This document shows, in pieces, positions 2,671 to 27,136 of a stretch of 32,822 bases of DNA. The position numbers were made by a program, and so were the translations under genes. This DNA is from Henriciella sp. (lineage in GTDB: Bacteria > Pseudomonadota > Alphaproteobacteria > Caulobacterales > Hyphomonadaceae), in assembly GCA_027019605.1 (NCBI GenBank), contig JALUWJ010000266.1:1-32822 (forward strand). Direction: 5' to 3'. The notes below the pieces were generated by a model, which ran no database searches, was not told where the DNA came from, and saw nothing but the letters and a program-made list of their open reading frames with translations. Numbering within the stretch: position 1 is the first letter of the stretch; each line of letters opens with the position of its first letter.

Positions 2671-2858
2671 CGTTTGCTCCGGCTAAGATTGAATTCTCGA
2701 TTGCATTAGCGCCGAGCGTGATCGTTCACAATGAAAAGCCCATCGTCCGACCTGATGGCTCGTAATTCAACGTCCTCTTGGCGGTCAGAACCCAGCGCAT
2801 GCCAACATTTTTTTGTCATTTTCTATAATCGAGCGAAGCATCAATTTCGTGCTTCTTT

Positions 2859-3715: not shown

Positions 3716-3904
3716 ATGATGAAACATCTTACACGCGACGACGCATCGAAACTCTTAGAGCGCATCCAATCTTATTGGGCTGATCGGGGGTATGACGTGA
3801 CGGGCATAATCGTCGCCGCTGGCTATAGCGAGCGGCTGCGCTCCACAGTCTACGAGATTAAAACAGATTTGGTGAACGGATACCCAAGTCAGCGCGTTGC
3901 GTAA
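3716..3904 (+). CDS. Small hypothetical protein (62 aa)
   Basis: A 62-residue product starting MMKHLTRDDASKLLERI, with either of two adjacent ATGs (3716, 3719) following a GGGAGA ribosome-binding site at about 3701. It contains YWADRGYDVTGIIV, then a loop and a final KTDLVNGYP block. I have an impression that short alphaproteobacterial proteins with a 'YW..RG' and '.SDLVNG.P' pattern are common in phages and islands, but cannot name the family. It lacks signal or membrane segments, so a small cytoplasmic protein is likely. It lies between the TetR gene (divergent) and the giant surface gene (same strand, 192 bp downstream). Confidence 0.55.
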   Translation: MMKHLTRDDASKLLERIQSYWADRGYDVTGIIVAAGYSERLRSTVYEIKTDLVNGYPSQRVA

Positions 3905-3963
3905 ACAAGTATTGGGCTGCTGATTTCAGGATGACTGTTTCGCGGATACATCCGTAGGTAGAT

Positions 3964-3992
3964 TTGTTAGTGTACTGAATCAACTGCATAAA
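3964..3992 (+). promoter_or_regulatory. Possible promoter upstream of the giant surface gene
   Basis: TTGTTA at 3964-3969 and CATAAA at 3987-3992 are separated by 17 bp, a fair sigma-70-like spacing in an AT-rich stretch about 105 bp before ATG 4097. The -10 matches only four of six consensus positions, so this is tentative. The 3905-4096 interval holds no other recognised element. Confidence 0.25.
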
Positions 3993-4096
3993 AACTGAAA
4001 AAGACAGTATTTATGTAAACTTGTTAACACTTCTGAATGAATAATGCCGGAGCGCGCGTGATCCCGCTCGTCGATTCGAACAAGGACTTCGTCACC

Positions 4097-12481: not shown

Positions 12482-12511
12482 CCGTTTCGCCTACGTTTTG
12501 GTGATCGAGAG

Positions 12512-12543
12512 CCCCCAGCAACGTTTCGTTGCTGGGGGTTTTT
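12512..12543 (+). terminator. Rho-independent terminator after the giant gene
   Basis: A perfect 12-bp stem (CCCCCAGCAACG at 12512-12523 with its complement at 12527-12538), a TTT loop and a following T-run. It lies 30 bp after the stop at 12481 and before the outer-membrane gene at 12709. The two surface genes are therefore mostly transcribed separately. Confidence 0.95.
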
Positions 12544-12708
12544 ACTGATTGGAGTGCTGTAAGGAACGGCGCTTAGTCTCTGAATAGTTTACAGATTTAC
12601 CGAAAACTTTAACCAGTGATGGGGGGGTTGTAAACGTCAAATTGACTCTCTTCAGGCATGATCATCCCAAAGCAAGGGTTCTGGCGAATTTTGCTTCAGG
12701 TTTGAGAT

Positions 12709-15700
12709 ATGCGAACCACTCATCGATCAGGATCTACGCTCGCGGGCATACTGTTGTCCGGCGCAGCCCTCGCCCCTATCGCGCAAGCATCTGAAACGCG
12801 TTCTTCCTCGAACGCCGATGACGAAGCAAATCGTTCGATTGCGTTTACAGACGCAAACCACGAAGAACTGCCAAGCCGAAAACTTAATGTCGGCCTGGGG
12901 CAGGGGGGCACAGTCGTTCCTGGGGGCGAGACCGTCTCGTTCATGACGTATTGGAACTATGACCGAGATGTCGCGTTCAGTTCTGTTCGGATCTTCAAGG
13001 CTTCAGATAAGCAACTAAGCTCACCCTTGGCAGATATTCCTTTTACACGGGAGCAGGGTGCCGAGTGGCAAATGCCGGAGACCGGCAATGGGGAATTTAT
13101 CTACGTCCTTCGGGTCTACAATCAGTCTGGCCTCTATGATGAAACCCATCCCAAATCGTTGAAGCGCGGGGCTGTGAAGGATCGCGATATAGATTTGGAG
13201 CATCTGCAAAATCAGATCAAATCCGTTGACAATACGGCGGTCCAGAACATTCAGATCACACCGCGAATCCGCGTGAAAACAGTAACGCGCGTCGCGACGG
13301 ATAAGGTGCAGACAGAAGCATCTAAAGTGGTCGAAGACCACATCGCCACGACGCCATCAGCACCGTCGGTGAAACCGAACTTGGAAGCCCCTTCAAGGGC
13401 GCCCGATGAAGGGGTAGAGACGACAGTCCTCACCGAAACTAAACCTGATCTCACCGCGGAGCTGGACCCCATTCCAGAGGCGCCTGCGACACGTATTCTG
13501 GTGGGTGAGACCTATTGGGCGGACGCCGTGAGTGCGACAAAGCTAGATCGCGAGAGCGATGATTTGCTGCGGCAGTCCGATATCCATGTCAGCTTTGATG
13601 GTTTGGATGTGCAACCGCTTCTGAATGTGGGTCTCGTTGGCGGCGGAACGTCCGTCGTGCCTGGGTCAGGAATTCAGTTCGAGACCTATTGGAATTATAG
13701 CGATTTCATCGATCGAGCGCAGATCGAAGTCTACGATCCAAGTGACAAATACATCGCCGCACCGATTGCCACGCTATTGGTTGATTCCGTTACCGGACGC
13801 GCGGATTGGACGGTGCCAGCCTACCGACGGACGGACGGTTATACATATGTCTTGCGCGTGTTTGATAAGGACGGCCAGTCCGATATAACCGATGCAAAAC
13901 ACCTCGCAATCGTTTCTGAAACGCAGTCCTTGGAAGACGCGCCCAACATGACCGGGCCTATCTATGGAGAAGATGCGACCGCTCGTCGAAACATCGACGT
14001 TCGCGGCGGCGCGATCACGGTATCAGGCACAGGGTTTACGGTAACAAAGGCCGAGACGCTGAGCGTGCGTGGGAAGCCGGTTCTCACTGACACCGATGGC
14101 AGTTTCGCAATCCAAGAAATCATGCCGCCAGGCGAGCATGATGTCTCCGTGCGATACAAAACATCCGACGGACGCGTTGTGCGCACCACAAAGTCTGCAG
14201 AAATCCCCGAGAGCGAGATGTTTTTTGTCGCGCTTGGCGATTTGACGGTCGGAACTCGGTCGAGTGAGGGGCGTGCCTTGCTCGAAGCGAGCGGCGAGGA
14301 CTTTGAGGAAACCTACGTGACGGGGCGCGGGGCGTTTTATCTCAAAGGTAAGATCCAAGGGCGCTATTTGCTCACAGCATCTATGGATACGACTGAGGAC
14401 GATATTGATAATCTGTTCTCAAACCTTTCTGACAAAGACCCACAATCCATTCTCCGGCGCGTGGACCCTGACCGCTATTATCCGGTGTATGGCGATAACT
14501 CGACCTATGTCGAAGATGCCCCAACCCAAGGCCGGTTCTATGTCCGCCTGGAGGATGGCGATGACCATGTCGTGTGGGGGAATTTCTTCACCAATGTGAC
14601 GGACACAGAATTCGCTCAGATTGATCGCGGCCTTTACGGCGCCAAAGCAGAGTATAATTCAGACGCCACGACGGAAGACGGCGAGAAGAAACTGAGAGCG
14701 ACCGTGTTTGCGGCCGATCCGGGGACGATACCCGGTCGCCAGGAATTTCGCGGCACCGGTGGCTCAGTCTATTTCCTCGAGAACCAAGATGTCACGATTG
14801 GCTCGGAGCGGCTCCGCGTCGAGCTACGAGATCAAGACTCAGGACTGGTGCTCGAAACACGCGAGCTGCGCCCGTTTGTGGATTATGAGATCGATTACAT
14901 TCAAGGCCGAGTCATTCTCGCCGCGCCGCTTGCCTCCACAGAGCTGAATGACCAGGTGGTTCGAGATGGCGTCCTCTCCGGCGCTGCGGTCTATCTCGTG
15001 GCGCGGTATGAATACACTCAAGCCTTCGTCGATGTGGCTGGATACTCGACAGGCGGCCGTGCGGAAGCCTGGGTGAACAAGCTGCTTCGACTTGGTGTGA
15101 CTGCACAGAATGAAGAAACCGGCGAGGCGGATCAAACCCTGGTCGCTGGAGATGTTCTGCTCAAAAAATCAGAGCGGACCTTCTTAAAAGCTGAGCTTGC
15201 ACAAACCGAAGGCGCAGCGTTCGAGGAGCGCTCTTCCTTAGACGGCGGATTTACGTTCAATCCGCTGACCAGTGGCCTTGTCGGATCTCAAAAAGCAACC
15301 GCTTGGCGGGTCGAAGGCGCACTGACTGGCGAAGACTTTGATTTGGAGCAGCCTTTGAGCCTGAACGGCTTCTATGAGGACTTAGAGGCTGGATTTTCAG
15401 CACCGGGTCGTCTGACACGCGGCGATACAACCCGGTTCGGCTTTGGGGCTCAATCGGAGATCAATGACCGCGCGTCGCTGGCTTTGAAATATGACTCCGC
15501 TTCGATCGACGAAGCGGTGGATGAAGATACGGCAGCGGCTGATTTGAGGATCGCTCTAAACGAGGATTGGTCGGCGGGCTTAGGCCTCCGCTATAATGAG
15601 CTCTCTGGTCCTCTTAGCCAAAACTCCGGTGATCGAACCGATGCGGGCTTGGAGATACGCAATCAGGTCCACGAAGCCCTTGCGGTTTATGGATTTGGCC

Positions 15701-16872
15701 AGGCAACTCTAGATACGAGTGGGAATCGAGAGGATCTTAATCGCATCGGTCTTGGGATTGAGAGCCGCGTTTGGGATGCGCTTCAAATTCGGGGCGAAGT
15801 ATCAGGCGGCGATGGCGGCACGGGCGCGCTCGCAGGTGTCACATGGCAACGGTCTGATGGCGAAGAATATTATTTGAACTACACGCTGGACGCCGATCGA
15901 ACGGAGCCGGGTGTGGATGGAACCTCCTTCCTGCCGAACACACAGAATAGCCTCACGCTTGGGGGCAAACGACGCTTCACCAGCACGCTCAGCGTATATG
16001 GCGAGGAGCGCGCGACATTCGGCGACCGCGCCGGGCTCACGCATGCCTACGGCCTGGATTATACTTGGAATGATCACTGGACGTTTGGCGCGTCCTTCGA
16101 AATCGGCGATGTGGAAGAGTTCACCCAAACGCTGGAGCGCGAGGCCTATACTGTGACGGCGGGATATGCCGATGAGGCGATCAGCGCGGGCGCGGCCCTC
16201 GAATGGCGGTCCGATGAGGACGCGACAGGGAAGCGAGACACTTGGTTGTTCCGGTCCAATCTCGGGGTCAAAGTCTCGCCCGATTGGACGGCGATCTTGA
16301 AGTATAACATCGCTGAAAGCGACTTCACGGGCGGCGCTTTCTTTGATGGTGACTTCACCGAATTGCAGGTTGCAGGGGCCTATCGCCCAACCGAGAACGA
16401 TCGCCTGAATGCGCTGTTCCGCTACACCTATTTTGAAGAGCTGCCGTCTGCGGAGCAGATTTCAAATTCGGCTCAAACCGGATTGCCGGCGCAGAAGTCG
16501 AATATTTTCAGCGCCGACGCAAACTATCGCGTCACCGACTGGCTGACACTTGGCGGCAAGATAGGGCACCGTGACGGCGAGGTAAGTCTATCGCGAATCG
16601 AGGATGATTTTGTCGAGAATAGCGCGACGCTCCTCGTTGGCCGCGCTGACGTCCACTTCGTCAAAAAGTGGGATGCTTTGATTGAGCTGAGATCTCTCGA
16701 AGTTGATGCCTCCCAAGACAAGAAGACGGGCGCTTTAGCGGCAATCTATCGGCACGTTAGCAACAATGCCAAAGTAGGTCTCGGCTATAACTTCACCGAC
16801 TTCTCAGACGATCTCACAGATCTTTCCTTCAACGATGATGGCTTGTTCCTAAACGTCGTTGCGAAATTCTAA
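12709..16872 (+). CDS. Large outer-membrane beta-barrel protein (1387 aa), probable partner of the giant surface protein
   Basis: Signal peptide at residues 1-27, ending in AQA before SETRS. Two homologous modules follow: residues 59-148 (LNVGLGQGGTVVPGG, FMTYWNYD, YVLRVYNQSG) and about 304-395 (LNVGLVGGGTSVVPG, FETYWNYSD, YVLRVFDKDG). A Thr/Pro/Glu-rich linker separates them. A small beta-sandwich (about 425-500, GGAITVSGTGFTV) leads into a long region of alternating amphipathic strands from about 506 to the end. The last residues, FLNVVAKF, end in Phe, the usual C-terminal signal for BAM-dependent barrels. From memory, proteins of this type accompany DUF11/SdrD-B giants in other proteobacteria, but I know of no experimentally assigned function. 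Export or anchoring of the giant protein is inference. Upstream spacing after the terminator implies its own promoter. Confidence 0.88.
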   Translation: MRTTHRSGSTLAGILLSGAALAPIAQASETRSSSNADDEANRSIAFTDANHEELPSRKLNVGLGQGGTVVPGGETVSFMTYWNYDRDVAFSSVRIFKASDKQLSSPLADIPFTREQGAEWQMPETGNGEFIYVLRVYNQSGLYDETHPKSLKRGAVKDRDIDLEHLQNQIKSVDNTAVQNIQITPRIRVKTVTRVATDKVQTEASKVVEDHIATTPSAPSVKPNLEAPSRAPDEGVETTVLTETKPDLTAELDPIPEAPATRILVGETYWADAVSATKLDRESDDLLRQSDIHVSFDGLDVQPLLNVGLVGGGTSVVPGSGIQFETYWNYSDFIDRAQIEVYDPSDKYIAAPIATLLVDSVTGRADWTVPAYRRTDGYTYVLRVFDKDGQSDITDAKHLAIVSETQSLEDAPNMTGPIYGEDATARRNIDVRGGAITVSGTGFTVTKAETLSVRGKPVLTDTDGSFAIQEIMPPGEHDVSVRYKTSDGRVVRTTKSAEIPESEMFFVALGDLTVGTRSSEGRALLEASGEDFEETYVTGRGAFYLKGKIQGRYLLTASMDTTEDDIDNLFSNLSDKDPQSILRRVDPDRYYPVYGDNSTYVEDAPTQGRFYVRLEDGDDHVVWGNFFTNVTDTEFAQIDRGLYGAKAEYNSDATTEDGEKKLRATVFAADPGTIPGRQEFRGTGGSVYFLENQDVTIGSERLRVELRDQDSGLVLETRELRPFVDYEIDYIQGRVILAAPLASTELNDQVVRDGVLSGAAVYLVARYEYTQAFVDVAGYSTGGRAEAWVNKLLRLGVTAQNEETGEADQTLVAGDVLLKKSERTFLKAELAQTEGAAFEERSSLDGGFTFNPLTSGLVGSQKATAWRVEGALTGEDFDLEQPLSLNGFYEDLEAGFSAPGRLTRGDTTRFGFGAQSEINDRASLALKYDSASIDEAVDEDTAAADLRIALNEDWSAGLGLRYNELSGPLSQNSGDRTDAGLEIRNQVHEALAVYGFGQATLDTSGNREDLNRIGLGIESRVWDALQIRGEVSGGDGGTGALAGVTWQRSDGEEYYLNYTLDADRTEPGVDGTSFLPNTQNSLTLGGKRRFTSTLSVYGEERATFGDRAGLTHAYGLDYTWNDHWTFGASFEIGDVEEFTQTLEREAYTVTAGYADEAISAGAALEWRSDEDATGKRDTWLFRSNLGVKVSPDWTAILKYNIAESDFTGGAFFDGDFTELQVAGAYRPTENDRLNALFRYTYFEELPSAEQISNSAQTGLPAQKSNIFSADANYRVTDWLTLGGKIGHRDGEVSLSRIEDDFVENSATLLVGRADVHFVKKWDALIELRSLEVDASQDKKTGALAAIYRHVSNNAKVGLGYNFTDFSDDLTDLSFNDDGLFLNVVAKF

Positions 16873-16893
16873 GTCCCTGAGCGACCTATGCAA

Positions 16894-16950
16894 GGCGTTT
16901 TAAGACTCGGCGCGATATTGTAGGCTATAGCGCTATCAAACGCCATTTTT
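16894..16950 (+). terminator. Possible long-loop terminator after the outer-membrane gene
   Basis: GGCGTTT (16894-16900) can pair with AAACGCC (16938-16944), followed by ATTTTT. The loop of about 37 nt contains the palindrome ATAGCGCTAT. The stem is short and the loop long, so this is a weak candidate. It lies between the convergent outer-membrane and terS genes. Confidence 0.3.
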
Positions 16951-17009
16951 GTGTCGACACGCCAACAACCGGCGGCATGGCGGGACCCATCTCTGAAAAC
17001 TGAAAAACT

Positions 17010-17534
17010 TCAGAAGTACTTCGCGGCAGGATTTTCATCCGCCGCTTTAAACATCGGAAATTCAGATTTTGAGTGCGGCGACAGTCCAAATTCCTCTGCT
17101 AAGTTGGCTAGTCGTTTCTCAACATCACATCTCATTGCAAACAGCGGGTGTTTACGTGCCATTTTATCGGTGTGAGCGCTGGATGACACGTAGCAGTATC
17201 CCTCTTTTTTGAGTTGGCTATCCAGTTCCTGATACTCTTGGTAACTTCGACAAAAGAGCTCGAACAGTATTCGATATGCCGGCTCTAGCTTGATTGATTG
17301 CGCCGTGAGCTCTGCGAGTCCATACCATATTTTAGACAGCTCATCATCGAAGTGGTCTGGAGGGTCGCCCAGTCTTTCCAGGTTATCGCAAAGAGCTTTA
17401 TGAGATCGTTCCTCAGTTGTTAGGACAGTTACAACTCGAACAGCGCTAGTAAGTTTATCTTTTGACACATTTGACTCCAAAAAAGTTTTCAGCGACTCAA
17501 AAATCTGTGCATAGGTCCCTCCTCCGGTCCCCAC
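17010..17534 (-). CDS. P27-family phage terminase small subunit (TerS)
   Basis: The C-terminal 110 residues match the P27 small terminase pattern: an IWYGLAEL helix, EPAYRILFELFCRSYQEYQE, LKKEGYCYVSS, then KHPLFAMRCDVEKRLANLAEEFGLSPHSKSEF. The order 'HP.. RLANLAEEFGLSP' is characteristic. TerS recognises the pac or cos site and, with the large subunit, packages DNA. No large subunit is encoded here, as in phage satellites that borrow a helper's. The longest start is GTG at 17534. An alternative GTG at 17468, preceded by GGAG with a 6-nt gap, gives 152 residues, closer to the family's usual size. It is the last gene of the minus-strand module, after the iterons. Confidence 0.75.
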   Translation of the reverse strand: MGTGGGTYAQIFESLKTFLESNVSKDKLTSAVRVVTVLTTEERSHKALCDNLERLGDPPDHFDDELSKIWYGLAELTAQSIKLEPAYRILFELFCRSYQEYQELDSQLKKEGYCYVSSSAHTDKMARKHPLFAMRCDVEKRLANLAEEFGLSPHSKSEFPMFKAADENPAAKYF

Positions 17535-17641
17535 GCGTTCGATCTTAAGAAACGAGGGTACCCCTCCCTTCTACTCAGCAGTATACTTGATCAAACCACA
17601 CGGGCAGATGTCGCTGCGACCATATTATTCGACCGCAGAAA

Positions 17642-17783
17642 TCCCACTTTTCCCACTTTTCCCACTTTCGTTTGGTAAAGAATGCAAAGCTCGAATAACC
17701 TGAGAAGAACGCCTTGAGGCCGCCGCTCAATACCGCCCGCGCGAGTTTACCCTTTTAAGATAATCAGTGGGAAGAGTGGGAAA
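17642..17783. other. Inverted iteron clusters: candidate replication origin
   Basis: Three perfect tandem copies of TCCCACTTT (17642-17668) face two tandem copies of the complementary unit, AGTGGGAAG and AGTGGGAAA (17766-17783), across 97 bp. The cluster sits in the 319-bp gap between the primase-helicase stop and terS. In staphylococcal pathogenicity islands and other satellites the origin likewise lies next to the replication gene, with iteron sets flanking a melting region. The middle part is only moderately AT-rich. Assignment as ori rests on this arrangement, not on known sequence. Confidence 0.6.
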
Positions 17784-17853
17784 GAGGGATATAGATGAGC
17801 CTTATGATCAACTCTCGGCTGAGTGCCCTGATCGAAGGTGAGTGCTTTCTCCC

Positions 17854-20571
17854 CTACTTGTCATCCAGGATCGAAGAAGACATAGCGTAGACCCTACTGT
17901 TTTGAGACAATCGATGTGCTCGTAGATCCAACTTAGTCTGCCATCTTTTACCGTCCCCCCTTCGCAGGTAACCCATTATCCCGAGGGTTTTGGCTGCAGC
18001 GCCCGGGTTCAGCCCCTCCCGTTGAAACAAATTCTTCCAAGCCTCAGGCAAAATATAGAAGATTGTTGATCCATCGGCTTCAGTTTTGAAGAATCCAACG
18101 CGCTCTGATTTGAATTGGGACAAATCAAATTCAGTATCTAAGGGCTGAAACACCAGATCACCGCGCGTTTGAATGAGCTGCCTCAGAACTTCGATGTATC
18201 TTTGGTCTTCAACGGGTCCGATATAACCACGGTTCTCTATCCAATCTTCCAGGCATCGTGAAACGCCCCATATCGCCTCGCCTTTCTGCCAAGGAAGAAT
18301 TTTCAACTTTATTGCGACTTCACCGGCGGCCGCTAAGGCTGCAAATCTATTCAGACCACGTCGAACCTGACCAACGTCACTGTGATCATAGTGGTTCTGA
18401 CAAAATTCTGCTCTCGCTGATTCAAACCACCGCAGCACCTCCTCTCGGCGTTCAATCACTTCCTTTATGAATGCGGGTCCGGCCATTCCATAGTTTTCAC
18501 TGAGCGCTTTCGACAGTTCCTCAGCAAATAAGGACGCGCTTTGATGGCCGTGAATCGTATCGAACAATCCAAACCCCATACCCGGATCCGCTTCGATGTC
18601 GAGAACCCTAATCTGTTGACCCGCGGTCGCCCTTTTACCCGTTTCGCGCAATTTATCTGCTAGCGATATTTCACCGCTAGACACGAAGATGATCCGCCAC
18701 TTCTTTGCCGGACGACTTGATCCATCTCGATTGGCTCGATCTTTACCACGCCCATTGGCGAGCATGTACGCAATCCGATCAGCAGCACCGGGTGCTGCTT
18801 CCGACAACTCGTCTAACAGCAGACAAGTATCGGAGCGGCTCTCCGCAACACTTTCCAGGCCATTGTCCGTGGCCCGCCAGGTTTTCATGAATGCATTTGG
18901 GCCGTACACAGACGCACATACGCGTAGCGCTGTACTTTTTCCGATTGAAGATGGGCCGTTAATGTGGATCCCGCCATTCTCCACGCCCGTCCACTTCATC
19001 AATGGACCCAGAAATGCGGCACATAGCGTGATAATTAAGCGCGAGTTCCCAGCACAGTACTGTGCTACCGATTGTTGCCAATCTTCGAGGGCTCCACGAG
19101 AGCCAAATCCGTCATTAGCAGGGATCCTTTCTACGACCTGCGGGCACCCGTCTGCGCAGATCACGTTCTCGGGAAGTGCAAACGCGGTATGGTCCACCCA
19201 CCCAGTTCGGGTCGCTAGCACTGCAGAAGGTGGCTTCCCTGAATTAACCCAAGCTCTCAAGTTGCTGCGTGCTGACTGGAAGCTTGCATGGAAGAGCCCT
19301 TCTTTCGTCAGAATATCTAGGAAATCATCTCGACGCCCGCTCCACGCCTTGCAAGGAATGGTAACTTCTTTGAACCTATCTACGCGGGTGCCAACTTCAA
19401 AACACCGGTAGTACTCTCCGGCGTCGTCGATTAGTTCGTAAATCGGTTTGATGTAGCTCGAGAGCTTCTCATAATAGCGATCACTATCTCGCTTTTTTTG
19501 AATGAACAGTGCGTTACGCTCCCGATCCGCTATAAATACTGGAAGCTCTGTCCCAGCATTGTTTTCCCAACATCGTTTCCATGATCGAGCGCGTTCGCTA
19601 TCAGGCCTTTGGTCCCCGTCCCCTTCACCATAGCCAAACCCAGCCGCGGTCCAGGCCTTTATTGCTTCTTCGAAAGCGGGCTCATCCAGACCCGACAAGC
19701 GCGCTACGCGAGCAAAAGCAAACTCCTGTCCACTTCGACTGGGATCGCCGAGGTGATCAGTAGCGCCTGATGAAAGCAACTGGAACGCATTCCGATATGG
19801 CAACATATCATCCGACGCTGCCCAATCGCGCATTCGTTCCAGGGAACCCTGAACAATAGAGGCATCCGGTTCTCCGTCATTTACTTTAGGGTCTGGTTTG
19901 CTGGACTTGTTCGCTCTCGATCTAGGCGGGAGCTTTCTTACCGTGTTTGATTTACAAGAAAGCTTCGGCCCAAACTTGTTGATGATTTGCCCAATCTGCT
20001 CCCTGGTCAGGAAGGGGAGGGACTCTTCCGATTCATTGATGCGTTGCCCGGTAATCGTGAAAAAGCGTCCCCCAGCATAAAGATCGATGCAAGGTGGATG
20101 CTCTCTCTCGCTCCCAGGCTTTTTCCAAGTCTTGGTCAGTGTTCCGTTGAGCACAGACGAAAACGCTTCGAGATCGCATCTTCGAGCCAACGCAAATCCT
20201 TTCAGACCCGTTCCGCTGGGGCTGGTCTCCCAATACCCTGGAGTGGCTTCGAGAAGTTCTTCCGCCCAAGGCACGCGAGTGCCAACGGTTGGATCTATGC
20301 AGGTATCTAAGTCTAACCCTATTAGAAGCTTGTCCGGATCCCGCAGCAAAGGTCCAAGGAATACACCCAAGCCCTCGTTTCTGCCAAGCTTGGATAATTC
20401 GATGGCAGCTGTAAAACTCATCCAAGATGCGGGGTCGTTTGATTTTCCAACTAGGGGATCGCAGACAGGCAACTTCGTAGACTTGCCGTCGCGCTTTACA
20501 TACTTCCACGCACAGAATCGATTTTCGTTAGTGAGCGCCGCAAAGGCCGTTTGGATAATTTGCTCAGTCAT
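17854..20571 (-). CDS. PrimPol / DUF927 replicative primase-helicase (905 aa)
   Basis: Start at ATG 20571, overlapping the end of alpA by 8 bp (ATGACTGA). The frame is open to 20775, but that extension lies over alpA. The N-terminal part looks like an archaeo-eukaryotic PrimPol domain: LDLDT at about residue 87 (metal-binding DxD), SPSGTGLKG at about 124, and IDLYAGGRFFTITGQ. A helical linker leads to a DUF927-type helicase domain with Walker A GPSSIGKST near residue 540 and Walker B CLLLDE near 584, then TRPAKKW-like and SSGE sensor segments. The C-terminal winged-helix-like region ends LRAHRLSQNSRVYAM. It would prime and unwind the element's DNA from the adjacent iterons. The order int-alpA-this gene is that of phage satellites and P4-like islands. 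Confidence 0.88.
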   Translation of the reverse strand: MTEQIIQTAFAALTNENRFCAWKYVKRDGKSTKLPVCDPLVGKSNDPASWMSFTAAIELSKLGRNEGLGVFLGPLLRDPDKLLIGLDLDTCIDPTVGTRVPWAEELLEATPGYWETSPSGTGLKGFALARRCDLEAFSSVLNGTLTKTWKKPGSEREHPPCIDLYAGGRFFTITGQRINESEESLPFLTREQIGQIINKFGPKLSCKSNTVRKLPPRSRANKSSKPDPKVNDGEPDASIVQGSLERMRDWAASDDMLPYRNAFQLLSSGATDHLGDPSRSGQEFAFARVARLSGLDEPAFEEAIKAWTAAGFGYGEGDGDQRPDSERARSWKRCWENNAGTELPVFIADRERNALFIQKKRDSDRYYEKLSSYIKPIYELIDDAGEYYRCFEVGTRVDRFKEVTIPCKAWSGRRDDFLDILTKEGLFHASFQSARSNLRAWVNSGKPPSAVLATRTGWVDHTAFALPENVICADGCPQVVERIPANDGFGSRGALEDWQQSVAQYCAGNSRLIITLCAAFLGPLMKWTGVENGGIHINGPSSIGKSTALRVCASVYGPNAFMKTWRATDNGLESVAESRSDTCLLLDELSEAAPGAADRIAYMLANGRGKDRANRDGSSRPAKKWRIIFVSSGEISLADKLRETGKRATAGQQIRVLDIEADPGMGFGLFDTIHGHQSASLFAEELSKALSENYGMAGPAFIKEVIERREEVLRWFESARAEFCQNHYDHSDVGQVRRGLNRFAALAAAGEVAIKLKILPWQKGEAIWGVSRCLEDWIENRGYIGPVEDQRYIEVLRQLIQTRGDLVFQPLDTEFDLSQFKSERVGFFKTEADGSTIFYILPEAWKNLFQREGLNPGAAAKTLGIMGYLRRGDGKRWQTKLDLRAHRLSQNSRVYAMSSSILDDK

Positions 20572-20761
20572 TGCTAACCTCTTCAGATTTTGAGAGGTTG
20601 TTGATCCAGTCTTCGATATCTCGTTCGAACCATCCGACCGATCGTACTCCCAGCTTGAAGGGCTTGGGGAACCGACCTTGATTGATGAAGTAGTATAGGG
20701 TCGAAACGGATAATCCCGTTCGATCGAGCACGGTTTTTCGCCGGAGTATTCTATTAGACAT
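20564..20761 (-). CDS. AlpA-family excisionase / transcriptional activator
   Basis: 65 residues, nearly all one winged helix-turn-helix: RRKTVLDRTGLSVSTLYYFI, GRFPKPFKLGVRSVGWFERDIEDWI. This is the AlpA/MerR-like pattern of island regulators. In P4-like elements and Gram-negative satellites AlpA activates the excision or replication genes. A strong ribosome-binding site (GAGGAGGG) precedes ATG 20761. Its stop overlaps the start of the primase-helicase gene, so the two are translationally coupled. Transcribed in the same direction as int, 125 bp downstream of it. Confidence 0.9.
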   Translation of the reverse strand: MSNRILRRKTVLDRTGLSVSTLYYFINQGRFPKPFKLGVRSVGWFERDIEDWINNLSKSEEVSND

Positions 20762-20822
20762 GTTTCCCTCCTCATTTCTTAAGGAAGGTGTCTATTTATA
20801 CGAAGAAACCACGAAGGCCCCT

Positions 20823-20855
20823 ATCGTCGCCAAATTGTCAATAACGACCGACGAT
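20823..20855. promoter_or_regulatory. Inverted repeat around a TTGACA box in the int-alpA gap
   Basis: ATCGTCG (20823-20829) is repeated inverted as CGACGAT (20849-20855) with 19 bp between. The minus strand of the interval contains TTGACA, a consensus -35. No convincing -10 at the right spacing was found. It may be an operator for alpA or a partial terminator after int. Confidence 0.3.
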
Positions 20856-20886
20856 TCTGACTGAATTCAGGTGATTCGAATGGGTT

Positions 20887-22131
20887 CTAATTGAACGCTA
20901 AATATAGCTCCCAACTGCGCATTACATCACGCCGGCGCTCTAGCATATCTGTCCTGAGATACGCCCGCTCTACCTCGGTGCCGACTTTGTGCGCGAGGCA
21001 AATTTCGGCGAGGTTGCGATCAATTCCTGTTTCAGCCGCCCAGTCGCGGAACGTGGACCGCAAACCGTGAGGTACCGCTGGTCGTTGCGATCGGCGATCG
21101 ATAAATCCGTTCTTTCCACTGCGAATGTCCGCTTCATGCATGCGTTTCATCACCGCTGATATCGCCATATCAGAGAGCATCCCGCCTCTCGGTGCCCAGA
21201 ATACAACATCCGAGCCAGCCATACGGGGCAGTGATTGTAGAAGTTCGAGCGCTTGTTTTGGCAAAGGAACCCGGTGCTCTCGCCTAACCTTCATTCGTTC
21301 TGCAGGAACTATCCAGAGCCGCTGATCAAAGTCGACTTCTCGCCACGTCATCCCGCGAACTTCACCAGACCGTGCAGCAGTGATTGCAAGAAAGCGCAAT
21401 GCGTTCGCGGCCATTCCGTCACGTTGTCGAAGCGCGTGCCACCATCGCTGCAAATCCTTTCCTTGCAAAGCCGGGTGGCTGGTGATTGTCGTTAGCTTTG
21501 CAGGGCTCGCAAGTAGCTCCGACAGATTTCCTTTCCACCTAGCGGGGTTATCCCCGCTGCGATGACCAGATACGGTGGCCCAATTCAAAACCGCCTCAAT
21601 GCGGGACCGCAGTCGTTTAGCAGTTTCGGTCTTTTCCTCCCAAATGGGAGCCAGCACTTTCAACACGTCCTGCGTTGCGATCTGGGACACATACATTTTC
21701 CCGAGGACCGGAAAAGCATAACGCTCGAGCGTGGATCTCCATTGTTTCTTGTGCTTTTCGTTCTTGAGTTCTTTGAATCGTTTCATCAGCGCGTAGTCTG
21801 CTGCAGCAGAGAAAGTAAGGCGTTCCTTTTGAGCCTCCCTTATGGCCAATGGATCATGTCCAGCGACAACTGATCGTTTCGTCTGCCATGCAATGTCTCT
21901 GGCTTCGGCCAAAGAAACAAAGTTCGCATTGCCAATACCAAGCTCACGCCGACGCCCATTTATCACTATGCGCTGCTTCCAGTACTTTCGCTGGTTAGGA
22001 CCAACCTGGAGAATAAGGCCAGTGTTCTGACCGTCGTGGTATTTACCCTGCTGGGAAACGGTTCTTACAAACGCCGCGCTGAGTGGTTTGCCTACCATTC
22101 GATTTGTGGAAGTCGAACTTTCATCCCCCAT
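20887..22131 (-). CDS. int: Tyrosine recombinase, P4-type integrase (414 aa)
   Basis: Catalyses integration and excision at the tRNA-Ser site. The N-terminal 100 residues match the arm-DNA-binding domain of P4-type integrases (LSAAFVRTV, GLILQVGPNQRKYWKQRI, LGIGNANFVSLAEARD). The catalytic domain shows Arg in AARSGEVRGMTW, H-x-x-R in HGLRSTFRDWA, His in CLAHKVG and Tyr in ERAYLRTD. The full length and all active-site residues are present, so it should be functional. ATG 22131 is preceded by a GGGGAG ribosome-binding site. It reads inward from attR, 130 bp away. It lies at the end of the element opposite the tRNA. Confidence 0.95.
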   Translation of the reverse strand: MGDESSTSTNRMVGKPLSAAFVRTVSQQGKYHDGQNTGLILQVGPNQRKYWKQRIVINGRRRELGIGNANFVSLAEARDIAWQTKRSVVAGHDPLAIREAQKERLTFSAAADYALMKRFKELKNEKHKKQWRSTLERYAFPVLGKMYVSQIATQDVLKVLAPIWEEKTETAKRLRSRIEAVLNWATVSGHRSGDNPARWKGNLSELLASPAKLTTITSHPALQGKDLQRWWHALRQRDGMAANALRFLAITAARSGEVRGMTWREVDFDQRLWIVPAERMKVRREHRVPLPKQALELLQSLPRMAGSDVVFWAPRGGMLSDMAISAVMKRMHEADIRSGKNGFIDRRSQRPAVPHGLRSTFRDWAAETGIDRNLAEICLAHKVGTEVERAYLRTDMLERRRDVMRSWELYLAFN

Positions 22132-22147
22132 TTTCTCCCCCTCACTT
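22123..22147. repeat. Right copy of the att-proximal box, overlapping the int start
   Basis: Partner of the box at 1759-1782, matching except for one substitution and a two-base insertion. It covers the ATG of the integrase gene (complement of 22129-22131) and its ribosome-binding site. A protein binding here could therefore also control integrase translation or transcription. The role is inferred from position and repetition only. Confidence 0.45.
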
Positions 22148-22261
22148 AGTTGGAATAAGGTGGATCTAATGGAACCCTACTGGAACAGAATAATCAATAT
22201 TAATAACGTGTTACTAGGCTCTCTGGAACTCTTTGAAACTCACTGTTCGCCGCAAATGCTG

Positions 22262-22277
22262 CCTGTCTCACCGCCAT
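22262..22277 (+). repeat. attR: second copy of the 16-bp tRNA-Ser repeat
   Basis: Perfect copy of the 16-bp tRNA-Ser 3' end sequence at 1690-1705. The flanking bases differ on both sides (TC before the left copy, TG before this one; G after the left copy, T after this one), so the identity is limited to the core. It lies between the integrase start codon (22131) and the accessory region to the right. It therefore marks the right boundary of the integrated element. Confidence 0.9.
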
Positions 22278-22450
22278 TCAGTCTGCTCTCCCAGACCTGC
22301 TCTGGTTCTATCCCATAATGTGCCCAACATTCCGGGACTTAGCGGGTGATTCAGCCATTTGTGATCGCCGAGAGCCGCTCATCCCACCCCTATCGGGCGC
22401 ATTTCTAGCACCGTTCTCTGTGTCGCCGATTGCGGCTTAGGTCTTAAACG

Positions 22451-22472
22451 ACAGGGAAAATACAGGGAAAAT
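22451..22472 (+). repeat. Tandem 11-bp repeat outside attR
   Basis: ACAGGGAAAAT occurs twice without a gap in the gene-free stretch 22278-22543. Short tandem units beside an attachment site can be protein-binding sites or traces of an older element. No gene or other signal was recognised in the rest of this stretch. Confidence 0.6.
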
Positions 22473-22543
22473 CGAACGAAAGAGCCAATCATCAATAGCT
22501 CAGCCATCTTACGCCTCTCCTCATTTAACGCCGCCGCCCCGAG

Positions 22544-22981
22544 CTAGCTGGCAATGTCTTCAGCGAGCTTCTTGAGCTTCGATATTGTCAGCGTGTGCTT
22601 GTTGTCCCTCGCTGAGTAGCGCGCTTGTTCAGAAACCTTCGAGAACGGACCGTAATACACTTCCTCCCACTCGCCCTCAGTATCGACTTTAATGACGAGC
22701 ATCAGATCGGCTTCTCCGCGAAACCCTATCTGATTGGCAGCGTGACTAGCTTTGATCTGGACACGTTGTCCGTCGGGCGTGATTGCGTCGTAGCCGTTTG
22801 CGCCGGCAGGTGCTTTCTCGAGACCGTAGTGTTCGATGCAGACGAACTCACCATAGTCACCAAGAAGATTTCCGAGACCTGCCCAACGAAACTCTGGCGC
22901 GAGCGCGCGGAGCGCCTCCTGCGCAGAAAACAGCGTCGACAGAACATGTTTGATAGCTTGAGAGCGCTGTGTGTTTTCCAT
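22544..22981 (-). CDS. PD-(D/E)XK-like protein, DUF6998-type (145 aa)
   Basis: The product has a restriction-endonuclease-like core: a Glu in LLGDYGEFVCIEHYGL (about residues 40-55), Asp in GANGYDAITPDG and the Q-x-K element in RVQIKAS, followed by FRGEADLMLVIKV and EWEEVYYGPF. This order (helix with E, then D, then Q/ExK) fits a nuclease fold. From memory it resembles a family of small proteins annotated DUF6998; that label is unconfirmed. ATG 22981 follows an AAAGAG sequence. It is the first gene outside attR, in a region otherwise full of relics, and may be a leftover of a defence or mobile module. Confidence 0.65.
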   Translation of the reverse strand: MENTQRSQAIKHVLSTLFSAQEALRALAPEFRWAGLGNLLGDYGEFVCIEHYGLEKAPAGANGYDAITPDGQRVQIKASHAANQIGFRGEADLMLVIKVDTEGEWEEVYYGPFSKVSEQARYSARDNKHTLTISKLKKLAEDIAS

Positions 22982-23000
22982 GCTCTTTCATCCCCAACTA

Positions 23001-23028
23001 ACGCCCCACCACTGTGGTAATGGGGCGT
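23001..23028. other. Hairpin upstream of the PD-(D/E)XK-like gene
   Basis: ACGCCCCA (23001-23008) pairs with TGGGGCGT (23021-23028), with an inner CCAC/GTGG pairing. It lies 20-50 bp upstream of the start at 22981. It could act as an operator. It is not followed by a T-run on either strand, so it does not look like a terminator. Confidence 0.4.
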
Positions 23029-23091
23029 CATAAGAATGTCTATTTCAAGATGGGCAGGTCGTACCATCGTAAGGCTTAGGCGCCGCGACCT

Positions 23092-23205
23092 ATCAACGCC
23101 GCCGCCTACGTGAATGGACAGGTTATTTATATAGATGGCGGTCTTCAGAACGGCGATGGAAGACATGATTGCCTGACCGTTCCCGAGCGCAGCCAGCTCG
23201 CTTAG
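23092..23205 (+). pseudogene. Relic of a short-chain dehydrogenase/reductase C-terminus
   Basis: The frame from 23092 gives INAAAYVNGQVIYIDGGLQN before running to a stop at 23203. AYVNGQVIYIDGG is the conserved C-terminal block of SDR enzymes ('..itGqvlyvDGG'). A stop (TAG at 23077) lies just upstream, and no Rossmann or YxxxK part is present. Only the tail of the gene survives. Its end overlaps the end of the methyltransferase relic on the other strand. Confidence 0.65.
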
Positions 23206-23687
23206 CATGGATTTGTCGGCGAGGGATTGTCAGCGGAACCGGACCTCGCAGACGAGCGCTTCCTCGCTGATATCAGATCTATCTTCTGAACTGTGGGTAC
23301 CCTCTCAGCGCCCTCGAATCCGGACTCATTCAGTAAGTGAACTGTTTTGGCTATCTCTTCTCCAGACCGGCTGACCGGGTTCGGTAGCCATTCTGGAGGT
23401 TTGCTTCCATGAGACCTTAAACAAAGCCATAGGTGCCCGTCATTCTTCAATAACGCACTGAGGGGCCGAACTGTAGGTTCCGGGTTCGACCAGAACTGAA
23501 ACGAATGAAGCGCCACGGCATGATCAAAGCGATTGTCGGGCCAGGTGAGATCGGTGTCATCTCCCAGTCGTAGTTCGAATTCCGCGCCGGTTTGATTTAG
23601 CTTTCGGGTTGCAACCTGGTGCATGAGTGGGGACGGGTCCACGCCAGCCAAGCAACAATTCCGCCGGGTGCTCGTGCCGCCTACCAA
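23202..23687 (-). pseudogene. Class I SAM-dependent methyltransferase, N-terminally truncated
   Basis: 161 residues remain. AGVDPSPLMHQVATRK corresponds to the strand and acidic loop after motif I, LTWPDNRFDHAVALHSFQFW to the next block ('PDnsFD..'), and LLKNDGHLWLCL to the 'kpGGrl' strand. The glycine-rich SAM-binding motif I that should precede AGVDPS is absent in this frame, and the only start is TTG. Upstream codons in another frame (GAT TTT GGC GGT GGT) could be the displaced motif. Most likely a decayed fragment, probably unable to bind SAM. Confidence 0.6.
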
Positions 23688-23793
23688 TCCGTTGTTTCTT
23701 AAGCCTGAAAACCTTTTGATTTATTCGAAATCACAACAAAGGTTGGACCACCGCCAAAATCAGAAGCCCGTCAGGACCTATCAGGCAGTTTAG

Positions 23794-23925
23794 CGTGATC
23801 CCTGCGACAGCTCACTAAAGTCAGCTGGCAAGATGAAATCTGCTCAGATTGCGGTGCACCTAGGGATTAGCCGGCCGCCTATCATCCGATGCACTCGACA
23901 TCATAAACGTGATCTTAGAACATGA
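23794..23925 (+). pseudogene. Relic of a serine recombinase (resolvase/invertase) C-terminal HTH
   Basis: The frame after TAG 23791 reads RDPCDSSLKSAGKMKSAQIA, then VHLGISRPPIIR and a stop at 23923. 'SAQIAxHLGISRPxxxR' is the typical C-terminal helix-turn-helix of Tn3-type resolvases and invertases. The catalytic domain is missing. It indicates that a transposon or integrative element once occupied this spot. Confidence 0.5.
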
Positions 23926-23984
23926 CGAAGAGATCGCTCGCCTCTACTTTGAGCGTAATCCCTAGTTCACGCCCCGGAGTTTCG

Positions 23985-24722
23985 ATGAAAGAGAGCTCTT
24001 TGATAAAAACGCTTCAAGAGCTGTTCAGCCAACACCCGATGTTCGAGGCCAAGCCACTCGAGACCACAAATGAGGTTCTGCTCCCAGTATGCTTGAACGG
24101 GACCAAAATGGAATATTTGGCAATTCGGGATGGCAATCCCTTGCTCATCGTCTTCAATTTGGTTTTGGATGCGCAGAGGTTTTCCGAGACCTCTACCATC
24201 AAGCATGCTGTTCGTGAGAAACGACCATCTCCATACAGCCACGATGCGTATCACTCGCTGATAAGAGCTTTAGAGCTCGACCCGTGCCTGATTGATGCAG
24301 AAGACATATTCGACGCGCTAGTGACTGTAGCGACATCCTCGAGAATGCAACGATTGGTTCCGTGCACTGAGGATGCGCCGTGGGTCTCCAAACTTCGCGA
24401 ATACAACCAAGCTAAAGGAGAGTGGGAGCTTCATACGGCGACAAACGAAGTCCTGGAAACGATAAATAGCACGAACATCGATTTGGTGATGTCCGGTATC
24501 CCGGAGCTGGATCCCTGGTGCGAACAAGATCCAGAGAACCCTTTGGGGACCCAGTTGATCCTCTTGAGCGACCTCATGGAGAAGCATCGCATTCATACGG
24601 CTCAAGCCGGTGCTCACCTAAAACGACTGCGAAAAGACTACGTTACCCTCACCGGTAACTGGCAGGCCGAAATCGACGAAATCGATTACTTGCTTGCGCT
24701 AGTTGACGCGAAACCCAATTGA
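23985..24722 (+). CDS. Hypothetical protein (245 aa)
   Basis: Start chosen at ATG 23985, which has GGAG five bases upstream. The frame also opens at ATG 23922, with no ribosome-binding site and lying over a recombinase relic. The product begins MKESSLIKTLQELFSQHPMF and is soluble. An alpha/beta N-terminal half (LLPVCLNGTKMEYLAIRDGN, PLLIVFNLVLD) is followed by a mostly helical C-terminal half ending in a Leu-rich helix. No family recognised. Two further small unrecognised genes follow on the same strand, 54 and 88 bp apart, suggesting a cassette. Confidence 0.6.
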   Translation: MKESSLIKTLQELFSQHPMFEAKPLETTNEVLLPVCLNGTKMEYLAIRDGNPLLIVFNLVLDAQRFSETSTIKHAVREKRPSPYSHDAYHSLIRALELDPCLIDAEDIFDALVTVATSSRMQRLVPCTEDAPWVSKLREYNQAKGEWELHTATNEVLETINSTNIDLVMSGIPELDPWCEQDPENPLGTQLILLSDLMEKHRIHTAQAGAHLKRLRKDYVTLTGNWQAEIDEIDYLLALVDAKPN

Positions 24723-24776
24723 CCGACGACTTCCTATCGTAACTAAAAAATCCAACAACTAAAGCAGACTGATTGT

Positions 24777-25169
24777 ATGAACCTCTATCTTGTAAGCCGC
24801 TACGGAGCGGGCATTTTTCTAGACGAACTCAACCCTGATTTGGAGACTACGAAGGATTCCAACTTACTGGTGCGCGCCAAAACGTTTGGAAGGGCTGGCG
24901 AGCTAGCGCATGATTTCTTGGCTGCATACATCTCCTCATTTGAGCATCTTCAGGATGAGCTAAAAACCAGTCGGATGCTTTGCGACTATATTGTTCAGAT
25001 TGGAACTGACGCCGAGAACCCAACCGAAGAAGTCATCCACGGTCCGTTCCTATCCCACGCCATCATTCGCGGAAAACATGCCGGAGAAATCGCCAAAGGC
25101 ATCAATCCCTTCAAAAGCTGGACTTATGATCGCGCCGCCGGGACTTGGCGAAAAGTAAGGCATTCATGA
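24777..25169 (+). CDS. Hypothetical protein (130 aa)
   Basis: Starts MNLYLVSRYGAGIFLDEL and contains a central helix (GELAHDFLAAYISSFEHLQDEL) and a C-terminal KSWTYDRAAGTWRKV strand pair. No signal peptide, membrane span or known motif. Small alpha/beta proteins of this size in accessory cassettes are sometimes immunity proteins, but nothing here proves that. ATG at 24777, 54 bp after the preceding gene on the same strand. Confidence 0.55.
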   Translation: MNLYLVSRYGAGIFLDELNPDLETTKDSNLLVRAKTFGRAGELAHDFLAAYISSFEHLQDELKTSRMLCDYIVQIGTDAENPTEEVIHGPFLSHAIIRGKHAGEIAKGINPFKSWTYDRAAGTWRKVRHS

Positions 25170-25257
25170 GCTGGTGAAAGCCGCAAGCTGTCTGGACAAG
25201 GACATGATTAGCCAAGAACCTCGGTTCACCACCTTCGCTCGGAGCGTTTAAAATCAA

Positions 25258-25722
25258 ATGTCCTCAATCACTCATCGCCTCAATTCTTACAAACGCCCGA
25301 GAGGAATTTCTGCACGGCAGCACGCTGTATCGTCTGCTCATGTTGAGAATGCTGGCTTCATCGCGGTCATCAGCTTTCACGGCAAAATTCCTGACGGGTC
25401 TGAAGGTAAAAGCCACGCTGAGTTTGTAACGCTGCAATGTGTTGAGGCGATCGCAAGGCTGGACGCAATTTGCATAATCATCGACTTTCGAGACGTGCAA
25501 TATCAGTGGGGAAATAGCCTGCTAAGGGTCTTCGACACGCTCAGAAAGCACCTTTATTATGAGTGGCATGATGTCAAAGGCGCGACACCGGTTAAGCTTT
25601 TGGCGTCAGATAAATCAGCCGGATTGTATTCCTTGATTGGCAATCCGAACATGTTTTTTGAAACCATGGAAGCCGCCATTGAATCTTGCGGTTCAGACTT
25701 GGAGCTTTGGTTGCCGGAATGA
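25258..25722 (+). CDS. Hypothetical protein (154 aa), possibly STAS-like
   Basis: An alternating strand-helix pattern: FIAVISFHGKI, a helix with EFVTLQCVEAIARL, ICIIIDFRDVQYQWGNSLL, PVKLLASDKSAG and a final helix EAAIESC. A beta-strand running into 'IIIDFRD' and then a helix is reminiscent of STAS or SpoIIAA folds, though the identity is too weak for a name. A GGAG-containing sequence lies upstream of ATG 25258. Its last 30 bp overlap the 3' end of the convergent gene at 25693. It marks the right end of the accessory cassette. Confidence 0.55.
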   Translation: MSSITHRLNSYKRPRGISARQHAVSSAHVENAGFIAVISFHGKIPDGSEGKSHAEFVTLQCVEAIARLDAICIIIDFRDVQYQWGNSLLRVFDTLRKHLYYEWHDVKGATPVKLLASDKSAGLYSLIGNPNMFFETMEAAIESCGSDLELWLPE

Positions 25723-26751
25723 TCGACTTGAAATTCGCCACAGCAATCGGTCTGCCTGAATCTTGCAGTCGACGTCCAAAAAACTGCGCTGCGCGTGAAT
25801 GGCGCCGCGCCAGAGTTCGACCCAGCAAGACAACAATAACTGACGCGTCTGACCTTCGAGGCCTCGCGCGATGCGCAATCCGGTTTGGGTGATCGAAACG
25901 CTGCCATCCTCGAACTCATCGATGACGCACGCATCGCCCATGCCTTGCATCATCTGTGACAAGAATTCCGCCGATTGACGGGCGTTACCTTCCGCCATGC
26001 CCAACGCGGCGCGCATGTCTTGATAGTTTTGTAGCCCCGTCAGCCACGCGGCCTTTGTTGCGAGCATCTTTGTTCGCTCGGCACCGATGACCTCCGTCAG
26101 GGCGCTCAGACCATTGCGGACATATTCCATGGCATAGTTTCGATTGGCTTTGGCCAGTCGCTCCTCGCTCCAATCGCGCGCCGGAGGTACGGGTTGGTCG
26201 CCGGCGACAAAGGCAGGCGGTCGCTCATCCGGCGCAAAGACCAGGCGCTCTGTTTCGCTGAGGTCGTGATCATATTCTTTGAAATAGCCGCAAAGGCCGA
26301 ATTGACCGGTCACATCTTCCGAAACGCAGACAAAGCCGAGGCGTGGATTGTTCAAGGAGACGCCATTTTGCGCGTACCAGCCGTGTAAGAAGCCGCGGCT
26401 GGCTTCGACCGGAATGCCGCAAATGGCGGGGCCGGCATACATCCAGCGCGGGTAACGAAACCGGACCCAAGCTTTGCTCTCGGACTCGGCCATATACTCC
26501 ACCGCGACCCCGCCAATGCCGTTTGAGAGCACATGATATTTCGCGCACGCGACCGCGTCCGGCTCCTGATCCAGTCCAAGCTTTTCAAAGCTGGATAAGA
26601 ACTTGTCTTCATGCTGGCGGCGAAACAGTCGGAACATCCAATTATAGACAACCTGCTTACTCTCTTCGACGGCGACCATGAGCTGCAGGCCGAGAAAATA
26701 CTGATGGTGAAGGTTGGCTTGTGCGGTGATGGCGGCAGAGGTCATGGTCAT
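25693..26751 (-). CDS. Hypothetical protein (352 aa)
   Basis: A soluble protein starting MTMTSAAITAQANLHHQYFL. The middle has VEYMAESESKAWVRFRYPRW and GLCGYFKEYDHDLS, the C-terminal third is helical (GMAEGNARQSAEFLSQMMQG) and ends in SCWVELWRGAIHAQRS before a tail. I do not recognise the family. The start overlaps the stop of a truncated upstream frame (ATGA at 26748-26751), so it was the second gene of an operon whose first gene is now mostly gone. The last 30 bp lie over the end of the convergent cassette gene. The C-terminal tail (RSFRQPKLQV) may therefore be partly foreign sequence added at the junction. Confidence 0.65.
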   Translation of the reverse strand: MTMTSAAITAQANLHHQYFLGLQLMVAVEESKQVVYNWMFRLFRRQHEDKFLSSFEKLGLDQEPDAVACAKYHVLSNGIGGVAVEYMAESESKAWVRFRYPRWMYAGPAICGIPVEASRGFLHGWYAQNGVSLNNPRLGFVCVSEDVTGQFGLCGYFKEYDHDLSETERLVFAPDERPPAFVAGDQPVPPARDWSEERLAKANRNYAMEYVRNGLSALTEVIGAERTKMLATKAAWLTGLQNYQDMRAALGMAEGNARQSAEFLSQMMQGMGDACVIDEFEDGSVSITQTGLRIARGLEGQTRQLLLSCWVELWRGAIHAQRSFLDVDCKIQADRLLWRISSRSFRQPKLQV

Positions 26752-26890
26752 TCAGCGATTGTGGATTGGCGATCGGGTGTGTCCAAGTAAGTTTCCACGG
26801 TTTGGTTGAATGCGTCCAGCGCGCCCTCAAAGCGCCCAAACAGCACGTTTTGATTTGCACCAGACAGACGCGCCGCGCCGACACGGCTAT
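26748..26890 (-). pseudogene. C-terminal stub of an unknown gene upstream of the 352-aa gene
   Basis: In the minus frame ending at TGA 26748, about 40 residues read like natural protein: AARLSGANQNVLFGRFEGAL, then DAFNQTVETYLD and DRQSTIAE. The stop overlaps the next gene's ATG, a typical operon junction. No usable start lies upstream in this frame, and beyond about 26890 the opposite strand begins to encode a TetR C-terminus. The gene seems cut off by a rearrangement. Family not recognised. Confidence 0.4.
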
Positions 26891-27136
26891 TTGAAAGGGT
26901 TTTTGCAAAACCTGATCGACCAAGTGAAAGACATTCCGTTATGGCAGCAGGCGGAAGACGCTCAAATCCTCGCCTTCGTCTATCAGATTTTGGGCGCGAT
27001 CAATTATTATGGGATCTCGGAGTCGACTCTCACCGGCATATTTGGGCGTGATTTCTATGGTGAGCTCAATGCAAATTATCCCTATCAATTGGTGCATTTG
27101 ATTGATGCCGCATTGGCTGCTGGGCCGCCGCGCTGA
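26890..27136 (+). pseudogene. TetR-family regulator, C-terminal remnant
   Basis: From about 26900 the frame reads FLQNLIDQVKDIPLWQQAED, then AQILAFVYQILGAINYYGIS and STLTGIFG, a pattern of the C-terminal ligand domain of TetR proteins ('Y.is.pTLtgmfG'). The N-terminal helix-turn-helix is missing. The frame stays open to ATG 26810, but that stretch is antisense to another plausible coding end, so it is not native N-terminal sequence. The gene was probably truncated by a deletion or inversion. Confidence 0.5.

Follow-up and report, generated by a model that had tools for sequence, protein, structure and literature searches.

What kind of element combines an integrase, an AlpA activator, a replication gene and a small terminase subunit (TerS) in one run of genes, and where does it end? 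The question is raised by a contig of Henriciella sp. (Hyphomonadaceae), JALUWJ010000266.1 of assembly GCA_027019605.1; its 32,822 nucleotides are referred to here as the window, and the metagenome-assembled genome (MAG) to which it belongs is 84% complete. An initial annotation described a module at 16873-22277 resembling the phage-inducible chromosomal islands (PICIs). This likeness is supported by the gene order, by the presence of an own TerS and by a sister element of the same layout, and neither of the refuting outcomes named in that annotation was obtained. The proposed left limit had to be abandoned; the left end is the 3' end of a tRNA-Ser gene at 1690, while position 16873 simply follows the stop codon of a cargo gene. 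In the explanation that we favour, and hold with good confidence, the locus is a 20.6-kb PICI-like satellite at the 3' end of tRNA-Ser(GGA), whose own cohesive-end site (cos) and TerS would capture the large terminase subunit (TerL) and the particles of an HK97-like helper phage.

The island extends from 1690 to 22277, with 20.6 kb between its flanking repeats; these limits are set by a pair of tRNA-end repeats and by a relative, G001, which lacks the stretch at this site. With up to two mismatches, the core of the attachment site (att), CCTGTCTCACCGCCAT, has no further site anywhere in the window; with up to three, there is a single extra site, on the opposite strand and with three mismatches, and three matches were reached in none of 100 shuffles. 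A repeat search with one copy restricted to 12000-17900 gave no att; the pair was located by a search with the tRNA end. G001 is the closest relative by PMSR identity (92%). Its homology to the window reaches the tRNA end (1704) and restarts at 26897; 1.36 kb of other DNA replaces window positions 1705-26896, which are absent at this site. The tRNA-end core is found, one copy each, in 19 of the 20 regions fetched from relatives, of which only 14 are about 20 kb long and the other five are too short to exclude a second copy. The island is real and probably functional, of satellite type and PICI-like in layout.

The core lies on the minus strand and runs in one direction, with open frames: int, alpA, replication gene, iteron region, cos-like block, terS. 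The annotated tyrosine integrase matches three Pfam families, and the expected catalytic motifs, as we take them to be named, are present. AlpA was also correctly recognised, including the 8-bp overlap of its frame with the start of the replication gene at 20571. For the replication protein, described as PrimPol/DUF927, the second part is secure; residues 385-623 match DUF927 (PF06048, 1.5e-54), with a Walker A motif at residue 539. For the first part, no Pfam PrimPol model matched at E up to 1, but residues 13-178 resemble the solved 'Primase' chains 6a9w/7rr3 (about 1e-7), which we take to be NrS-1 PrimPol. Searched as a single protein, the primase has no match in the genome-contig collection and one distant locus in the viral-contig collection. 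It was not found in 28 other genomes of the genus and is present in 24 of 384 other genomes of the class sample.

Directly after the replication gene, as annotated, is an iteron cluster. Five AGTGGGA copies lie at 17642-17781, in two sets which are both 3' of the gene; when the intergenic stretch of 385 bp was shuffled 2000 times with dinucleotides preserved, a 7-mer as frequent as this arose in 2 of the shuffles. In Gram-negative PICIs, iteron sets lie just 3' of the replication gene, and the two sets of the origin flank an AT-rich region (excerpt of PMC6092414). AGTGGGA iterons were also considered as a trait of the DUF927-replicon family. This was rejected, as only 2 of the 60 loci in a deduplicated set carry at least three downstream copies (against 0 of 1124 background windows); many DUF927 loci carry their own repeated word downstream.

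By sequence, the product encoded at 17010 is a small terminase of the P27 type, as first annotated; matches are to PF05119 (5.4e-16, longer frame) and phrog_83 (7.6e-19; 4.9e-19 on 17010-17468). Its predicted structure (mean pLDDT, the predicted local distance difference test, 78.5) also points to a TerS, with the HK97 small terminase as top match, weakly (E 0.3). Against chains A and B of 6z6e, the template modelling score is 0.63-0.64 by target length; no match passes 0.001. The start had been placed at GTG 17534, which falls inside a conserved non-coding block. The frame upstream of 17468 is not conserved in the sister element, where GTG 17534 is GCG and a one-base indel disrupts the frame; the block is therefore read as non-coding, and TerS probably starts near GTG 17468. 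TerS alone has no relative in the viral-contig collection. A search of 120 genomes with TerS gave the window, G025 of the same genus and G049 of another family of the order; in G049, terS is followed by TerL and portal genes.

The non-coding block is the candidate cos site. In order, it contains GGGAGGGG, about 30 bp, GGGGACCG, a T-run, GAAAACTTTTTT and a ribosome-binding site. A matching order is found upstream of terS in the phages mEp235 and Pm34 and, minus the last box, in capsid-forming elements. In HK97, TerS binds 15-29 bp downstream of the cos cut, at a site that requires an A-tract (excerpt of PMC11331095); in the island's block, too, a T-run follows GGGACCG. This block is probably a cos site belonging to the island itself. 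The candidate, overlooked in the initial annotation, is the strongest support for the suggestion that the island's own TerS redirects packaging.

A strict form of the cos-like pattern is found upstream of terS in 14 of 28 terS loci, a count in which L061, L084, L085 and L086 are near copies and not independent. Over 5.24 Mb, both strands, it has 19 matches in total, including 13 of those 14 and the copy L219. When IMG/VR was scanned blind for the satellite form of the pattern, 5 matches resulted. Two (L239, L242) are directly upstream of TerS-TerL-portal; L241 is near a frame read by eye as HNH-like; L240 and L243 are one common sequence with no adjoining terS. A longer pattern (GGGACCGG, GGG, GCNC, T-run), framed after the blind scan, has 10 matches in 6.09 Mb at four distinct places, and each precedes a terS: the window, the sister, L284 and L242. 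No sequence of the viral-contig collection matches the 18-mer GGGGACCGGWGGAGGGAC exactly.

The sister element (G025; loci L217/L219) is located on JAEPOM010000014.1 of Henriciella sp. HXMU1422-3. Its integrase is 74% identical to that of the island and its AlpA 73% over 55 amino acids (aa). The replicon is a different one; Toprim and DUF3987 replace PrimPol-DUF927, and the iterons are also its own (six AATCGCA copies within 242 bp, matched in none of 2000 shuffles). A related TerS and a cos-like block are present. The element ends at tRNA-Ser(CGA), and a repeat of the tRNA end, 15 bp long, lies upstream of int; the whole measures 10.7 kb, with cargo between terS and the tRNA att. It has no TerL, portal or capsid match; the layout is thus not confined to complete prophages. 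For the island, the annotated lack of TerL and capsid genes is upheld, as a tblastn search of the window matched none of TerL, portal and HK97 capsid; tail and lysis genes were not searched one by one.

Table 1. Coordinates of the island, its integration site, core genes and cargo in the window
Feature	Position	Strand	Basis or remark
tRNA-Ser(GGA), integration target	1614-1704	+	ARAGORN; PMSR-tRNA-Ser(GGA) locus also in relatives
att copy at tRNA 3' end, CCTGTCTCACCGCCAT	1690-1705	+	16-bp exact direct repeat with 22262-22277
Hypoth_ymh	1915-2322	-	Pfam
TetR-like	2859-3575	-	Pfam matches below cut-off
DUF11/SdrD_B repeat-rich protein, 2814 aa	4037-12481	+	Pfam
1387-aa protein, read as outer-membrane barrel	12709-16872	+	OMP_b-brl 24.3 bits, below cut-off 28.7
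terS, P27/Terminase_4 type, 152 aa, revised start GTG 17468	17010-17468	-	Pfam, PHROGs
Conserved non-coding block, candidate cos	17472-17572	-	75% DNA identity to sister over 105 columns
GAAAACTTTTTT box of candidate cos block	17479-17490	-	
GGGGACCG box of candidate cos block	17525-17532	-	
GGGAGGGG box of candidate cos block	17561-17568	-	
Iterons, three tandem AGTGGGA(AA) units	17642-17666	-	Gene strand
Iterons, two inverted AGTGGGA units	17766-17781	+	
Replication protein, 905 aa, PrimPol-like N-terminus and DUF927 helicase	17854-20571	-	Pfam, PHROGs, solved chains
alpA, excisionase/activator	20564-20761	-	PF05930 2.5e-18
Tyrosine integrase, 414 aa	20887-22131	-	PF22022 1.7e-30, PF00589 6.9e-19, PF13356 2.2e-13
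Distal att copy	22262-22277	+	130 bp upstream of integrase start

Flanking repeats, gene order and the lack of a TerL or structural match are taken from the sequence itself; induction, a helper and transfer we infer. By analogy with Gram-negative PICIs and phage-inducible chromosomal minimalist islands (PICMIs), a helper phage would raise AlpA. In Gram-negative PICIs, alpA is required for induction (excerpt of PMC6092414); in PICMIs, AlpA is required for excision (excerpt of PMC10803314). AlpA and the integrase would then excise the island as a circle, which the PrimPol-DUF927 protein would amplify from the iterons. The island's TerS would bind its own cos-like block and recruit the helper's TerL; DNA would be packaged from this block into helper particles, and with it would move the cargo, which encodes a giant, repeat-rich protein and what is probably an outer-membrane barrel. 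Speculatively, the sizes would suit packaging of multimers; 20.6 kb is half of a genome of about 41 kb, and the sister is a quarter of 43 kb.

Several observations weigh against this explanation. No helper is seen; the MAG has no TerL_nuclease match (TerL_ATPase was not searched), and the only prophage reached with the TerS query in 120 genomes belongs to another family. The island has no recognised gene for capsid remodelling or interference. The DNA separating the iteron sets has an A+T content of 51% and is not AT-rich, the structural match of the TerS model to its top hit in the PDB (8pop) is weak, and the strict cos pattern is missing from 14 of the 28 terS loci. Gram-positive PICIs are about 15 kb, compared with 20.6 kb for the island and 10.7 kb for the sister. 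In addition, TerS matches are rare among related integrases; they are found in only 2 of 20 further places with a related integrase (L276 and L284; 4 of the 20 stretches are shorter than 5 kb), both of which have a capsid match as well, and among another 19 loci only in the sister and L224. Elements with this family of integrases thus do not carry terS as a rule.

One rival reading is a remnant, left when deletion removed portal, capsid and TerL from a capsid-forming PICI (cf-PICI) or a prophage and terS survived by chance. A cf-PICI, by definition, has its own portal, capsid and TerL. Relatives of the primase are often found in elements with portal, capsid, P27 TerS and TerL, and a terS match in 21 of 109 primase loci is accompanied by a TerL match in all 21. 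This history is difficult to reconcile with the sister, which has a different replicon and the same terS-only layout, or with the open core frames and conserved cos-like block of the island. In a tree of 23 TerS, which left out six further terS of the primase-locus set, 14 capsid-forming TerS form one clade (97/94) with the three satellite TerS outside it; these three group at 86/92, a weak, long-branched grouping. The tree provides moderate evidence against a stripped capsid-forming satellite and, together with the sister, makes a recent loss of the capsid cassette unlikely. A remnant is considered improbable as a whole.

The extent of the satellite can also be disputed. If the 5.4-kb core alone were the satellite, the DUF11/outer-membrane-protein region at 1706-16872 would have been inserted separately at this tRNA, with the core's own left att now lost. 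The core on its own resembles a minimal satellite, its GC content differs from that of the DUF11 region (0.51 and 0.56), and a further 4.6 kb (22278-26896) outside the distal att is absent in G001, which implies that the site changed more than once. This division is nevertheless rather doubtful, since no third att is found near 16873 within three mismatches and the sister too carries cargo between terS and its tRNA att. Least probable, and very unlikely in our view, is an integrative element that does not use phages and in which terS is a relic or has another role. In its favour, DUF927 replicons are also present on plasmids and on islands without terminase matches, and most of the related-integrase elements examined lack a TerS match; against this, terS has been conserved jointly with the cos-like block despite the replicon swap, and the block is one that phages also have.

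Beyond this single island, a separate alphaproteobacterial lineage of satellites can be proposed tentatively, at somewhat less than even confidence. Its members would share one tRNA-targeting integrase family; some would keep cos-terS as a packaging ticket, replicon and iterons would be swapped as a block, and the capsid- and tape-measure-like proteins of L284 and L226 would point to resizing of the helper's head and tail. An integrase match is present in 92 of 299 genomes of the order, from which 20 places were fetched. Repeats of 14-18 bp of the tRNA end are found upstream of int in all 14 related-integrase elements tested, the sister among them, in a test limited to those loci where a tRNA gene lies downstream as expected (5 of 14 in one set, 9 of 20 in the other). 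The lack of a TerS match in 18 of the 20 places weighs on this proposal.

Individual related elements vary in content. L284 and L226 have the same integrase family, end at tRNA-Ser and encode a capsid-like protein (PF05065, 2.2e-6 and 1.3e-6) as well as, according to PHROGs, a tape-measure-like protein. In addition, L284 has a TerS (phrog_83, 2.3e-12) and a cos-like block, the latter by a looser pattern only; it has no TerL or portal match by tblastn. L276 has a capsid match and a P27 TerS in the interval from int to tRNA-Tyr; a repeat of the tRNA end, 15 bp long, lies upstream of int, and tblastn gave no TerL match. In L224, from a Flavimaricola MAG, TerS follows a DUF3987 replicon; the locus is at a contig end, and a TerL beyond the end is possible. 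L222, 5.8 kb long and bounded by tRNA-Arg repeats, has int, alpA and, in the position of TerS in the others, a DUF5681 protein.

The cargo of the island (1706-16872, about 15 kb) is absent at this site in G001. It is dominated by the two large proteins in Table 1, the 1387-aa one being probably an outer-membrane barrel; a divergent second relative of this protein is found on contig C35 of the same MAG. In the sister, a cargo protein (L217, 13114-14103) has SIR2-type defence matches (PADLOC, 5e-11), and a related element in Ruegeria, L221, encodes a SIR2_2/ThsA-like protein. The 4.6 kb beyond the distal att, also absent at this site in G001, terminates within a TetR gene that is intact in G001; one of its products, a DUF6998 protein, weakly matches a methyl-directed restriction enzyme. 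Among IMG/VR loci, 17 of 80 match DUF927 primase, portal, capsid, P27 TerS and TerL, on contigs of mostly 8-22 kb (L080-L086, L089, L091, L095, L098, L100, L101, L104, L105, L113, L128); they apparently form a large group of capsid-forming satellites, in which the gene order of L113 differs from the others.

In line with the initial annotation, which knew of no described satellite in this bacterial group, none was found for Henriciella in literature searches of limited extent (phage satellites; PICI in Alphaproteobacteria), and an excerpt of PMC8682789 describes no such element. Within these searches, four features were not found described: the host group, the PrimPol-DUF927 replicon, a cos-terS cassette kept across a replicon swap and a large surface-protein cargo. 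The island extends terS-bearing satellite-type islands to the Hyphomonadaceae. With its sister, it is a compact natural case in which the likely packaging specificity (cos-like block and TerS) has been conserved and replication exchanged. Two related members in one genus make the choice of helper by the TerS and cos parts testable, and the cos-like pattern is a sequence handle for finding satellites and helpers together.

Among known systems, the island is most readily compared with the Gram-negative PICIs (EcCICFT073 and relatives). According to an excerpt of PMC6092414, it shares with them int, alpA and a primase/rep gene in a unidirectional core, accessory cargo, two iteron sets just 3' of rep (the origin of the island being putative) and, with some of them, a terS; the island's cos is a candidate. 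As far as the same excerpt describes these elements, the island differs in its size of 20.6 kb, its PrimPol-DUF927 replication protein, a cos-like block joined to its own terS, its tRNA-Ser site, its host family and the lack of a recognised interference gene. Gram-negative PICIs are further characterised by a specific att site that prophages do not use, and by helper induction, interference and transfer in particles; the island has an att site at tRNA-Ser, and its induction and transfer are presumed. PICIs as listed for Gram-positive bacteria have neither structural nor lytic phage genes; the island likewise has no structural gene match (TerL, portal, HK97 capsid), which also sets it apart from a complete prophage (tail genes not searched one by one). 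PICMIs resemble it in their very small int-alpA-prim core without capsid remodelling; in the excerpt of PMC10803314, however, they have no terS, lie beside fis and have DUF3987/DUF5906 primases in their model, whereas the island has a terS and an att in tRNA-Ser. Capsid-forming PICI-like elements from IMG/VR (e.g. L080-L086) share the DUF927 primase family, P27 TerS and, in part, the cos-like layout; their portal, capsid, TerL and separate TerS clade have no counterpart in the island. The HK97-like phages with P27 TerS, mEp235 and Pm34, have TerL, portal and capsid genes for which the island has no match, but share with it a G-box, GGACCG and an identical GAAAACTTTTTT upstream of terS.

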